This document shows positions 5,764-13,432 of a stretch of 47,078 nt of DNA, piece by piece. The position numbers and the translations under genes are program-made. Below the pieces are notes generated by a model. It was not told the origin of the DNA. It was given only the letters and a program-made list of their open reading frames with translations, and did no database searches. The DNA comes from a virus. The stretch's first letter is position 1. Each line of letters starts with the position of its first letter. The DNA lies in IMG/VR virus record IMGVR_UViG_3300009176_000018, positions 1 to 47,078 of that record; one strand, 5' to 3'.

Positions 5764-6329
5764 CCCTTGGTGTCAGCGGCGACAAAGCCCACGCCCATGC
5801 GCAGCGCGGCGACGACCTCTACGAGACCCCGGCGGTGGCGGTCGAGGCGCTGCTTAAGGTCGAGAAGCTGCCCTGGATAATCTGGGAGCCGGCGTGCGGT
5901 CCCGGCGCGATCGTCAGGGTGCTGCGGTCGCACGGGCACGACGTTCTCGCCACCGATCTCGTCGACTATGGAACGCCGGACCAGGACGACCATGGTTGGG
6001 ATTTCCTGGCACAGACAGGTCGTTCGGAACACGAGGAAGCAATCGTCACCAATCCGCCCTACCGGATGGCCGGAAAGTTCGTCGCGCACGCCATCGAGCT
6101 GTGCCCGCTGGTCATCGTCCTCGCCCGCCTCGCCTTCTATGAGTCGACGGGCCGCGAGGCGATCCTCGCCCGTTGCTCGCGCATCCACGTCTTCGCCAAC
6201 CGGCTGCCGATGATGCATCGGGCTGGCTGGACGGGACCGAAGAGCACCTCCGGCGTCGCCTTCGCCTGGTTTGTCTGGGACGACAGACACCAAGGACCAA
6301 CCACCATTGACCGCATCACATGGGAGTAG
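5760..6329 (+). CDS. DNA N6-adenine methyltransferase-like protein
   Basis: The GTG at 5760 overlaps the previous stop (an ATG at 5751 is the alternative). The 189-residue protein has a SAM-binding motif EPACGPG (43-49), an acidic ATDLVDYG motif II (64-71) and the catalytic NPPY (98-101) of adenine-N6 methyltransferases. No separate target-recognition domain is visible, so the recognised sequence cannot be predicted. Likely roles are protection from restriction or altering host methylation-dependent promoters. The GcrA homologue lies in the same operon. Confidence 0.85.
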   Translation: MTLGVSGDKAHAHAQRGDDLYETPAVAVEALLKVEKLPWIIWEPACGPGAIVRVLRSHGHDVLATDLVDYGTPDQDDHGWDFLAQTGRSEHEEAIVTNPPYRMAGKFVAHAIELCPLVIVLARLAFYESTGREAILARCSRIHVFANRLPMMHRAGWTGPKSTSGVAFAWFVWDDRHQGPTTIDRITWE

Positions 6330-8310: not shown

Positions 8311-8537
8311 GCTACGCCGCCGACTATGGCGCGCGCTGGCGGGCCACGCACCGGGAAGAAGCCCGTGAATATGCCCGACGGTACGCCGAGGAGAACCGGG
8401 GCGTGGTGAACGACAAGGCCCGCCGCTATCGGCAGAGGAACCGCGTGGCCATCAAGGTCGCCCGCGATCTCAGCGTACCGATCGCCGAAGCCCGCCGGCT
8501 GCTGGGTGGCACAGGCGTTGCACATGAGGCGGTATGA
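8307..8537 (+). CDS. Basic helical protein, 76 aa
   Basis: GTG start overlapping the gcrA stop (GTGA). The product is rich in Arg and Ala (WRATHREEAREYARRYAEEN...ARRYRQRN), strongly basic, and predicted helical. The first half resembles the charged helices seen in phage HNH-adjacent proteins but no nuclease motif is present. Possibly nucleic-acid binding. Function unknown. Confidence 0.7.
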   Translation: MSYAADYGARWRATHREEAREYARRYAEENRGVVNDKARRYRQRNRVAIKVARDLSVPIAEARRLLGGTGVAHEAV

Positions 8538-10373: not shown

Positions 10374-10456
10374 TGTTGACGATCTTCGCCATCTTCCTTG
10401 GCGCCTATGTCGGGTGGCTCGCCGTCGTGTTCTACGACGGGATGACGCAGCCTTAG
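10373..10456 (+). CDS. Tiny membrane protein, 27 aa
   Basis: The ATG overlaps the SSB-like stop (TGATG). The peptide MLTIFAIFLGAYVGWLAVVF continues to YDGMTQP and is a single transmembrane helix. Its stop overlaps, tail to tail, the stop of the minus-strand gene at 10453. Function unknown; coupling and hydrophobicity support it as real. Confidence 0.5.
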   Translation: MLTIFAIFLGAYVGWLAVVFYDGMTQP

Positions 10457-10665
10457 TAGGCCTTCTTGCCGCCGAAGGGCGGGGCCTGCTTTCCTTTGAA
10501 GTTGGCCAGGTTACCCCTGCCGCTGCCGCCGATCTTGGGGATCGTCGGCGGCGGTGTCCTCGCGGGAGCCGGGGCCTTGGGCCCTGTCTGTGGCGAGGCG
10601 AGATCCGGGATGCCGGTGACGGCTTGTCGCATCATGTTGGCGATCGGGCTGGATTTCTTTGCCAC
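10453..10665 (-). CDS. Small proline-rich protein, possible virion component
   Basis: A GTG start at 10665 is chosen because AAGGAAGGAAACC precedes it directly; longer in-frame starts lack a site. The 70-residue product is basic and rich in Pro, Gly and Lys (KAPAPARTPPPTIPKIGG... FKGKQAPPFGGKKAY). Residues 6-18 (SPIANMMRQAVTG) resemble SPLSRLFQSAMG in the virion protein at 19623-20138, hinting at a structural role. It is isolated from the late operon by a plus-strand gene and a terminator, so it needs its own promoter in the 86-bp gap upstream. Confidence 0.65.
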   Translation of the reverse strand: MAKKSSPIANMMRQAVTGIPDLASPQTGPKAPAPARTPPPTIPKIGGSGRGNLANFKGKQAPPFGGKKAY

Positions 10666-10751
10666 GGTTTCCTTCCTTTCTGACGATACAGGCGTTCTCC
10701 ATCCTGTTAGCATGGCTTTGTTCTCGGGCAACACAAGATGGAGGATGAAGC
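10666..10751. promoter_or_regulatory. Divergent intergenic region
   Basis: These 86 bp separate two genes that point away from each other, so promoters for both should lie here. I see ribosome binding sites at both ends (AAGGAAGG for the minus gene, GGAGG for the plus gene) but only weak sigma70-like boxes. No inverted repeat stands out. Confidence 0.4.
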
Positions 10752-11510
10752 ATGCTTATAAGAGAAACTCTGAAGTTCGCTGCCGCCTTGGCGGCAGTCG
10801 TGGCGGTCACGGCATGGGCCCCGCCGGCCAATGCGGTTCTCATGGTGACGATGCAGGACGAGTTGGGGGCGACGTTTCACTGCGTCGACAACGGCGGGGC
10901 TTGTGACTTTTCCGGCGCGGCCGACAGCCTCCTGACCCTCAACAATGCGGTCGGGAGCTTTCAGGTTACCGGCACCATCTCGACCTCGCAGACCGGCCTG
11001 CTTAACCTACTCTCCTTGGTTAACTTCGGCGCGATCAATAACGACACGGCGGCGCATACGCTCAATATGTATGTCAGCGACACCGACTTCTTGGGGCCGG
11101 TGAGCGGCATCGCCAGCAGCGCCGGAATTCTGTTCTCGAACGCCGTGGGGTCCGGGCCGTCCAGCCTGGAGTTCTACGCCGACACCGGCAACACCCAGGG
11201 GGCCAATCTGATCAACTTCCCTGGCGTGCTTCTGGCTTCGGCGGTGCAGACACCGACGACCAACCCGCAGCAATTTCTCGGCAACGACTTTGCCGCGTTC
11301 AGCGATCCCAACCTGTTTTCGATGACCCAGGTTGCCCACATCAATTTGCGTGGTGGCGGCTCGTTCACCGATTTCGGCATGAACATGCAGAACGTCAACG
11401 CCGTGCCGGTGCCGGCGGCCCTGCCGTTGCTCGGCAGCGTCGTGGCCGGCTTCGGGGCGTTCGGCGCGTGGCGTCGGCGCAAGCTCTCGGGCGGCTCAAC
11501 CGCACACTGA
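10752..11510 (+). CDS. Exported protein with VPxPA-type C-terminal sorting tail
   Basis: The 252-residue protein has a Sec signal peptide (residues 1-28, ending PPANA), a Ser/Thr/Asn/Gly-rich beta-type body, and a C-terminal tail at about 218-244: VPVPAALPLL, a short hydrophobic span, then WRRRK. This tripartite tail matches VPLPA-CTERM/PEP-CTERM sorting signals, processed by exosortase/archaeosortase-like enzymes and common in Alphaproteobacteria surface or matrix proteins. GGAGG precedes the ATG by about 7 nt. It is flanked by its own likely promoter and terminator, so it behaves as a moron gene. Function may be host-surface alteration; inference. Confidence 0.88.
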   Translation: MLIRETLKFAAALAAVVAVTAWAPPANAVLMVTMQDELGATFHCVDNGGACDFSGAADSLLTLNNAVGSFQVTGTISTSQTGLLNLLSLVNFGAINNDTAAHTLNMYVSDTDFLGPVSGIASSAGILFSNAVGSGPSSLEFYADTGNTQGANLINFPGVLLASAVQTPTTNPQQFLGNDFAAFSDPNLFSMTQVAHINLRGGGSFTDFGMNMQNVNAVPVPAALPLLGSVVAGFGAFGAWRRRKLSGGSTAH

Positions 11511-11519
11511 CCGCCCGAC

Positions 11520-11559
11520 GTGGCGCAGGGGGGTTTTAACCCATTCCCTCCTGCGCTAC
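11520..11559 (+). other. Hairpin downstream of the sorting-tail gene
   Basis: A 14-bp stem (GTGGCGCAGGGGGG against CCCTCCTGCGCTAC, two G-U pairs in RNA) with a 12-nt loop starts 10 bp after the stop codon. There is no U tract after it, so it may protect the 3' end or assist the terminator at 11633. Confidence 0.5.
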
Positions 11560-11674: not shown

Positions 11675-12418
11675 TCAGATCCAGCTCTGCATGGCGATGT
11701 CGCGTTCCTGTTTCGCCTTGCCGCCGGGATAGCCGATGGTCGGTAGTGTGAACAGCCCGGCAAGCCGGCTGAGATCCGGGTCCGCGTTGGGGGCGACGCC
11801 CTCTGTGACCGGCGTCACTGCCAGGTTCATCGGGCCAAGGCCGCCACCGCCGGACATTCCGCCACTCGAGCCGCCGCCCCCGCCGGACGACAGGTCGCCG
11901 AGGGCGCTGCCGTCGAAGACCCCGGCGAGACTCTCTCCCGTGTGGTCGGAGCCGGGGCCGACGTTCGGCTGGGTCGCGCCGGGGACGGGGGTTTCGGGCG
12001 AGGCGTAGGATAGTTGCGGCTGGCCGGCGCCGGTGACCACGGCGGCGGCAGCCGGGAGCGGTGCGCCCTTGCTGCCGGCAGCGCCGGTTTCCCCGGTCTC
12101 GCCGTTGGCTGCCATGTTCTCGCCCAACGTCTTGTTGACGTCGAACTTGTGGCCTTTGGCCGACATGCGCCGAAGCGTGATCGGGTCCCAACGTTTCAGG
12201 GGGATGTTCTTGGCGACCGCGAGCTGAAGATGATAGGGCGCGTCGAGCGCCGTCGGATACTGGGCGAGGTTGACGCCGGCTTTCGAGGCCCAGTCCTTCC
12301 ACGTCCCGTCGGTGATCTGGAAGAAGCCGCGGGCACGGCCGGAAGAGGTGCTCTGGCGCTCGTTGGTGACGTTTTTGTTGCCGCTCTCGAAGCCGAGAAA
12401 GTCGCTGAACCAGCCCAT
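11675..12418 (-). CDS. Virion lysozyme/transglycosylase-like protein
   Basis: The 247-residue protein has GRARGFFQITDGTWKDWASK (residues 27-47) and later PYHLQLAVAKNIPLKRWDP, recalling lytic transglycosylase/lysozyme folds with the G-x-F-Q-I motif. The candidate catalytic Glu20 lies closer to this motif than in standard SLT enzymes. The C-terminal half is Gly/Ser/Pro-rich and ends with LAGLFTLPTIG (219-229), shared with the next upstream protein. Last gene of the late operon. Likely cuts peptidoglycan during DNA entry. Confidence 0.7.
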   Translation of the reverse strand: MGWFSDFLGFESGNKNVTNERQSTSSGRARGFFQITDGTWKDWASKAGVNLAQYPTALDAPYHLQLAVAKNIPLKRWDPITLRRMSAKGHKFDVNKTLGENMAANGETGETGAAGSKGAPLPAAAAVVTGAGQPQLSYASPETPVPGATQPNVGPGSDHTGESLAGVFDGSALGDLSSGGGGGSSGGMSGGGGLGPMNLAVTPVTEGVAPNADPDLSRLAGLFTLPTIGYPGGKAKQERDIAMQSWI

Positions 12419-12428
12419 TTCCGCATCC

Positions 12429-12644
12429 TCAATAAAGCCGGTCGTCTACGCCGCGAATTATGTCGGCGGACTGTTCCAGCCGATACAACGGTTGTTGTTC
12501 CTGCGTCACCCAACGACCGTTATCGCCACCGGGTCCTGGACCGTTTTGCCATGGCATCCAGTATGTCGGCGGCTTTGTCCGAAGAGGAAGCCCGTGCGGG
12601 TCAAGAGGAACCGCTGCCTGAGCCAATAGTTCAGCCAAAGTCAT
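12429..12644 (-). CDS. Hypothetical protein, 71 aa
   Basis: The ATG at 12644 overlaps the stop of the upstream peptidase gene (ATGA). The product begins MTLAELLAQAAVPLDPHG and is rich in Pro, Gly and Trp (PPTYWMPWQNGPGPGGDNGRW). It sits between two virion peptidoglycan enzymes, so it is probably virion-associated. The frame continues open upstream for 590 nt, but that is antisense-free shadow of the peptidase gene. Confidence 0.65.
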   Translation of the reverse strand: MTLAELLAQAAVPLDPHGLPLRTKPPTYWMPWQNGPGPGGDNGRWVTQEQQPLYRLEQSADIIRGVDDRLY

Positions 12645-13432
12645 AGCCACACCTTGCGTGCGAGCGGTTTCGCCTGCCCCGGCAGCGCCCCCGGCAGGGC
12701 GTCGGCGCCGGGCGGCGCGTCGCCGGGCAGGCCGATGGTCGGCAGGGAGAAGAGCCCTGCCAACGGGCCGACGGCGCCCATGTCGGCCGCTGCCGGCTGC
12801 TGGCTCATCTCTTGCGGCGTTGCCGGCATGACCTGAAGGTCGGTATTCGGCGGAGGCGAGTCGCCGCCGATCAGGCCGGTGCCGCGAGGGCCGCCGCCGG
12901 AGCTTATGCTGGGCGGGCCACCGGTACCGCTGTCGCCGCCGATCGTGGCGCTCGAGAGGATGTCGGCGACGGTGCCCGCCGGGGTCGGCGCGGGCGTCGC
13001 CCCGTTCGTGGCCGGCATCGCTCCCGTCAGGTTTACGGTCGCACCGCCGCTCGCGCCACCCTTGCCACCGCGCGCCCCGGCTGGCTCGATGTGCCAGTTC
13101 TCGTAGCTCATCGGGAAGACCAGACCGACCTGCGGGGCATACTTGTGCGCCGCCTCCATCGCCGCCTGCGAGCCGTAGGAGAGGTCGACGGCGTTGCCCT
13201 TGCCATGCTGGCTCCGGCCGGGCGGCGCCACCCATTTCCGGGCAGCTTGAGGCGAGCCGTATTTCCTGACGGCGCGAGCGAACAGGTCGGCTTGGTGCTG
13301 CGGGCTTCTATAGCCTGAACGAATTCCGATCTGCGAACCGAGATTATTGGGCAGGATCTGCCGGAGCTGCTCGAGCTGTGACAGGAAGCCGGGATTGATG
13401 CCGGCAGTGCCGGTGAGCAAGCTGAAGGCCAT
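12641..13432 (-). CDS. M15-family peptidase (D-Ala-D-Ala carboxypeptidase/endolysin type)
   Basis: The 263-residue protein has the M15/VanY zinc site: SGYRSPQHQADLF (39-51), SQHGKGNAVDL with His76 and Asp83, and NWHIEP with His114 and Glu116. These enzymes cut peptide cross-links of peptidoglycan. The C-terminal half is a Gly/Pro-rich linker carrying LAGLFSLPTIG (224-234), very like the tail of the transglycosylase-like protein downstream. Located among ejection-protein genes rather than in the lysis cassette, it is probably a virion enzyme for local wall opening. Confidence 0.85.
   Translation of the reverse strand: MAFSLLTGTAGINPGFLSQLEQLRQILPNNLGSQIGIRSGYRSPQHQADLFARAVRKYGSPQAARKWVAPPGRSQHGKGNAVDLSYGSQAAMEAAHKYAPQVGLVFPMSYENWHIEPAGARGGKGGASGGATVNLTGAMPATNGATPAPTPAGTVADILSSATIGGDSGTGGPPSISSGGGPRGTGLIGGDSPPPNTDLQVMPATPQEMSQQPAAADMGAVGPLAGLFSLPTIGLPGDAPPGADALPGALPGQAKPLARKVWL

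Follow-up and report, generated by a model that had tools for sequence, protein, structure and literature searches.

A phage gene encoding a protein with a CTERM-type tail

The gene at positions 10752 to 11510 (+ strand, ATG start) encodes a protein of 252 amino acids and lies within a 47,078-base IMG/VR virus record from an uncultivated phage, the whole of which is referred to here as the window. Based on its open reading frame, profile matches, homologues and alignment, we describe the product as a phage-borne CTERM (exosortase-substrate-type) protein belonging to a group of relatives that we call family A. The original prediction placed a signal peptide at the start of this reading frame and a tail comprising VPVPA, a hydrophobic span and RRRK at its end, and both are present. 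Residues 1 to 28 (10752 to 10835, + strand), MLIRETLKFAAALAAVVAVTAWAPPANA, are followed across an A-N-A cleavage site by VLMV and read as a Sec signal peptide. This peptide has no Cys and lacks a lipobox; membership of the window protein in the unimolecular spanins was rejected because the N-terminal lipobox is absent. Alignment and structure prediction delimit a putative exported beta-sandwich body at residues 29 to 217 (10836 to 11402, + strand). The remaining residues, 218 to 252 (11403 to 11510, + strand), make up the CTERM sorting tail recognized by profiles and in the model, in which VPVPA precedes a hydrophobic helix, RRRK and a short extension; the C-terminus reads VPVPAALPLLGSVVAGFGAFGAWRRRKLSGGSTAH.

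A structure predicted with AlphaFold2 from 16 family members (mean pLDDT 78) comprises an N-terminal helix at residues 3 to 20 within the signal peptide, a beta-sandwich of about 12 strands and a C-terminal helix at residues 223 to 246. The stretch between the signal peptide and the tail carries no transmembrane span, as judged from a middle hydropathy peak of 1.25 and the all-beta model. Cys44 and Cys51 are invariant throughout the family A alignment, and this pair is likely to form a disulfide. Foldseek searches with the model return generic beta-sandwiches, including carbohydrate-binding modules and viral jelly rolls, at TM of about 0.3, and we therefore do not claim an enzymatic or binding role. 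A sequence search of solved structures gave no credible match.

The window phage encodes TerL (phrog_38, E 2e-109), DNA polymerase, primase-helicase, a major tail protein and tail fibres. Its nearest cultured relatives are distant by TerL identity (Microcystis phage Mae-Yong1326-1, 55%; Rhizobium phage RHph_N65, 43%). The same phage was recovered again in a second contig, L002, where 15.2 kb of the window recurs at 99.99% identity, and the identical copy of the gene found there argues against an assembly error. Within its first 1.2 kb, the window contains three copies of a sequence of 31 to 35 bp (546 to 580, 658 to 688 and about 1088 to 1122), which appear as off-diagonal matches against L002.

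Profile scores and relatives identify the tail

The best NCBIfam match of the window protein is TIGR03370 (VPLPA-CTERM), spanning residues 218 to 244 with an E value of 0.0057; scanning the protein gave 16.6 bits and scanning the genome 18.4 bits, both below the curated cut-off of 25.35. TIGR02595 (PEP_CTERM), for which the curated cut-off is 16, yields 11.8 bits in the whole-protein scan and 16.3 bits in the genome scan. The profile search proposed along with the original prediction thus returned CTERM matches to both TIGR03370 and TIGR02595. Judged by the curated profiles alone, however, the window tail is only suggestive of a CTERM signal, and its relatives were therefore examined.

In the genome scan, TIGR02595 exceeds its curated cut-off in 15 of the 27 phage records and in 0 of 14 control genomes. 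Family A relatives score 18.5 to 28 bits with this profile, and the Pfam PEP-CTERM model matches 14/16 family A members at E <= 1. At the level of sequence, these relatives settle the identity of the window tail as a sorting tail: the body, the signal peptide and the tail are all kept in distant viral relatives, which argues that the likeness to CTERM signals exceeds chance. The predicted exosortase-type signal is therefore retained, since phage homologues pass the PEP-CTERM cut-off, whereas the strict VPLPA-CTERM label is not, since the window protein scores below the threshold for it.

Two or three protein bodies share the tail

Family A was gathered by three rounds of viral-contig searches and a scan of related phage records. 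Its body was found at 21 viral loci, one of which (L002) is the window phage itself, and proteins built in the same way as the window protein occur in at least 26 other viral records. Tails within the family are of the VPVPA/PIPA or the PEP/PEA/TEP kind, and most members other than the window protein end in PEP-CTERM tails of the VPEPSTWAM type. The relatives are labelled as phages according to the IMG/VR classification, with virion, terminase, lysis or integrase genes confirmed for several.

A phage whose TerL is 81% identical to that of the window phage (L015) carries a different body bearing TPIPAAGLLFPAGLAGLGMFGHWRRRK. A search with this protein, which defines family B, identified 24 viral loci with the body covered in 23, and its tails are of the VPIPA, VPGP, TEPG and PEPAS kinds. 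Family B also retains a Cys pair in its alignment. All 44 of the extracted family A and family B loci (44/44) keep the signal peptide, a PxP-like motif, the hydrophobic span and the basic end. When the two families were compared profile to profile with hhalign, only the tail aligned (columns 209 to 242, E 4e-7), which indicates that body and tail are separate modules. A possible third body, exported and with a VPEPSTWAM tail, was observed in L074 (9063 to 9842, - strand), divergent to a family A gene; it is possibly unrelated, or very distantly related, to family A. By sequence comparison, the finding thus spans two or three families over dozens of viral loci rather than one gene.

One contig, L107, holds a family A and a family B gene in tandem with a 4-bp overlap, directly after a GH25 endolysin gene. 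The two tails are 64% identical, compared with 27% on average and at most 55% among 240 A-B pairs taken from different phages. Matching tails would be expected if one host exosortase reads both proteins, a comparison that draws on this single pair.

The homologue search that had been proposed as a check yielded these viral loci. Bacterial genomes scanned with narrow, window-specific peptide patterns gave no relative, and given how narrow the patterns are, the missing cellular homologue should not be read as evidence that none exists. A search of one Bradyrhizobium plasmid produced no match, as did tblastn searches of GenBank phages and plasmids with family A (window, L056, L086) and family B (L092) proteins; both families show up in viral contigs from metagenomes only.

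The gene is an insertion between late genes

The late operon of the window occupies 11675 to 32101 on the - strand, so that the CTERM gene is opposite to it, as had been predicted. The last operon gene on the CTERM side (11675 to 12418, - strand) is transglycosylase-like from sequence with no family match, and beyond it lies a gene for a VanY/M15-type peptidase (12641 to 13432, - strand), an endolysin-type neighbour assigned by sequence match. On the other flank is a small conserved late-side gene (10453 to 10665, - strand). It is divergent with the CTERM gene across an intergenic gap of 86 bp in the open reading frame map (10666 to 10751), which agrees with the original proposal that the CTERM gene has its own upstream gap. 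The accompanying claim of a terminator holds in part: a terminator-like hairpin with a 14-bp stem and a 12-nt loop lies right after the stop codon (11520 to 11559, + strand, z = -3.75), and it lacks the T-tract of a canonical terminator.

Promoter and terminator scans around the CTERM gene gave nothing canonical, and the gap at 10666 to 10751 contains no sigma-70-like promoter and no sigma-54-like site. Sigma-54 sites have been reported upstream of some proteobacterial PEP-CTERM genes. Elsewhere in the window, an exact match to the sigma-54 consensus TGGCAC-N5-TTGCW is present at 8507 to 8522, and a DUF2800/PD-(D/E)XK nuclease gene probably starts approximately 70 bp downstream of it; this match may be due to chance.

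Both genes that flank the CTERM gene have homologues in G018, a collinear relative with 85% TerL identity, where they are 21 bp apart (13602 to 13624 of L071). In the window, these two late genes are parted by 1,009 bp that include the opposite-strand CTERM gene. In another relative, G003, the same slot holds a different gene of 395 amino acids (L069, 764 to 1951), whose product has a zincin-like HELMH motif. A third relative, G008, has a PEP-tailed family A gene nearby, on the far side of the small gene.

Base composition was compared between CTERM genes and the contigs that carry them. In the AT-rich contig L062, the CTERM gene has a GC content of 0.578 against a mean of 0.393, more than any other stretch of that length, and in L073, also AT-rich, it has 0.521 against 0.368, the highest among stretches of equal length. 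The window gene is unremarkable in this respect (0.628 versus 0.637). A further contig of 117.7 kb, L003, encodes a protein that is 71% identical to the window protein, and the CTERM gene is the only stretch in 20 kb common to L003 and the window. The empty site in G018, the GC islands in L062 and L073 and the sharing of only this gene with L003 together identify the CTERM gene, from comparative sequence evidence, as a moron, in agreement with the original prediction.

Proximity to lysis genes and other explanations

An endolysin gene lies within 2 kb of the CTERM gene in 11/30 non-redundant loci, a count that is biased because the endolysin queries were picked from the neighbours of CTERM genes. 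A permutation of endolysin proximity looks strong, but owing to the same bias in the queries we use it descriptively only. In L079, L084, L015, L105 and L107 the endolysin gene is on the same strand and the CTERM gene is in or beside a lysis cassette. A row of genes at 6080 to 8699 of L107 comprises a gene for a holin-like small membrane protein, the GH25 endolysin gene, the family A gene and the family B gene, and its gene content marks it as a lysis cassette with two CTERM proteins. Many CTERM copies are found in early, terminase-portal or integrase regions. Morons often sit near lysis genes, and the closeness to endolysin genes would fit either late expression or this habit of morons.

These neighbours raise the question of whether the protein might be a spanin-like lysis accessory, exported, rich in beta structure and ending in an inner-membrane helix, which would work with the neighbouring endolysin genes late in infection, its CTERM likeness being incidental or secondary. 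The endolysin genes within 2 kb, several of them in same-strand lysis cassettes, and a topology akin to that of unimolecular spanins speak for such a role. We nonetheless consider it improbable. The window protein has no lipobox, and a scan of the full set gave only two loose hits, of which one lies too early to be plausible. Every member retains the PxP-like motif and the basic end, many copies occupy the early, terminase-portal or integrase regions named above, and the proximity count carries the bias of its queries.

Another explanation is that phages have repeatedly picked up a host surface gene that travels with them as a selfish or neutral passenger, its product being sorted by the host while the phage gains little. 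Its sporadic distribution among close relatives and the GC islands, which mark recent acquisition, are in keeping with this. However, comparison of the window gene with that of L003 gives dN of about 0.26 and dS of about 1.65, and the resulting dN/dS of about 0.16, calculated by the simple NG86 method and with dS close to saturation, indicates purifying selection on the CTERM gene. Considering also that the gene is kept in many distinct phage backgrounds and that L107 has a tandem pair, we judge a passenger without phage function to be unlikely.

The modular tails suggest a different possibility, namely that the proteins are decoys that flood the host exosortase and leave native surface or matrix proteins unsorted, which would loosen the biofilm or remove receptors. 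Unrelated bodies with the tail alone in common, and tails that match within one phage, would be expected of a decoy. The bodies, however, are strongly constrained and have conserved Cys pairs that a decoy would not need, which makes this explanation very unlikely. It is hardly credible that the product is a structural component of the virion and that its C-terminal helix is like a CTERM only by coincidence. The jelly-roll-like fold does weakly match viral structural proteins too, but the protein has a cleavable signal peptide, is encoded on the strand opposite to the late operon, has an empty site in a collinear relative and has relatives that exceed the PEP-CTERM cut-off.

A host-sorted surface protein is the favoured reading

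We consider it likely that the gene is a moron encoding a host-sorted surface or matrix protein, that is, a phage-borne exosortase substrate. Many Gram-negative bacteria direct proteins to their surface or slime layer by means of such a tail. This reading builds on the observed architecture of the protein, its conservation, its horizontal spread, its insertion site and the lack of a phage exosortase. A search for exosortase (PF09721) in the 27 phage records found none (0/27), and any exosortase acting on these proteins would have to come from the host, as the original prediction had proposed.

In this scheme, the Sec signal peptide would export the protein, and the C-terminal helix and basic cluster would hold it in the inner membrane with VPVPA at the periplasmic face, where the host's own exosortase would cleave. 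The jelly-roll-like, probably disulfide-bonded body would then be passed to the outer surface or to the exopolysaccharide matrix. We infer recognition and cleavage by a host exosortase, delivery to the surface and a benefit to the phage. The displayed body would most likely alter the surface of the infected cell or, for temperate relatives, of the lysogenised cell. Our first guess at the benefit is that receptors or matrix are masked against re-adsorption and superinfection, and our next is that aggregation or the release of progeny is changed.

A search of the window contig for tyrosine integrase, serine recombinase and resolvase genes found none, and expression from a prophage is therefore not supported for the window phage. 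An integrase or serine recombinase is present in 7/27 CTERM-bearing records, where gene content makes lysogenic expression possible. Tyrosine integrase genes near family B CTERM genes were observed in L104 (9276 to 10442) and L105 (9661 to 10998), and their presence suggests that some carriers are probably temperate.

A broader proposal is that environmental phages have a general strategy of drawing on host exosortases: several unrelated exported bodies, each with a CTERM tail fitted to the exosortase of the host, would spread as cassettes, often next to lysis genes, and would remodel the surface or the biofilm matrix of the host in the course of infection or lysogeny. We advance this tentatively, at slightly less than an even chance. 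To our knowledge, the role of most PEP-CTERM proteins in Gram-negative environmental bacteria is unknown. If the proposal is true, phages would be tied to the exopolysaccharide and biofilm biology of these bacteria, host-fitted phage tails may report the exosortase class of the host, and a deletable phage protein would allow the function of sorted matrix proteins to be tested directly.

Comparison with known systems

Phages are known to give their hosts new surface proteins by lipoprotein and sortase routes. Prophage-borne examples include SasX, which has LPXTG, and the lambda proteins Bor and Lom, all of which are encoded by phage morons and reach the host surface through the host's own machinery. 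Unlike the window protein, these use LPXTG/sortase or lipoprotein routes, not exosortase. Our literature search found no earlier report that treats phage-borne PEP-CTERM proteins or morons, or an exosortase route to the host surface for a phage protein. Proteins of the TIGR03118 family with a putative exosortase-interaction C-terminus have been reported as horizontally transferred in hot-spring viral sequences (n = 13; PMC11003980); these differ from the window protein in family and habitat and are mentioned there in passing, as a family count.

Flocculation-associated PepA (NF033554), a matrix protein that undergoes sorting, shares its general design with the window protein, and in Aquincola a PEP-CTERM protein influences floc formation and how polymer is balanced between bound and soluble forms (PMC9850573). 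Phage proteins match NF033554 with E values down to 1.6e-8, and these matches look tail-driven, one scoring 24.1 bits against a cut-off of 80. The pepA gene is chromosomal, whereas genes of the window type are in phages. With VPLPA-CTERM proteins (TIGR03370), the best single NCBIfam match, the window protein shares the VPVPA motif and the RRRK end, although it is not filed as a member because its scores fall under the curated value.

According to Haft et al. 2006 (PMC1569441), a signal peptide takes PEP-CTERM proteins across the inner membrane and a C-terminal helix holds them there; cleavage by an EpsH-type exosortase and export together with exopolysaccharide are proposed to follow. The window protein departs from the substrates described in that paper, whose text does not mention phage, in being carried by a phage and in having the motif VPVPA with a score that only reaches the cut-off. 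It resembles PEP-CTERM/exosortase (EpsH) substrates (TIGR02595, PF07589) in its signal peptide, Pro-x-Pro motif, hydrophobic helix and basic cluster, and, as in those of PMC1569441, no helix lies in between, the body has no Pfam match and the gene stands alone after an intergenic gap.
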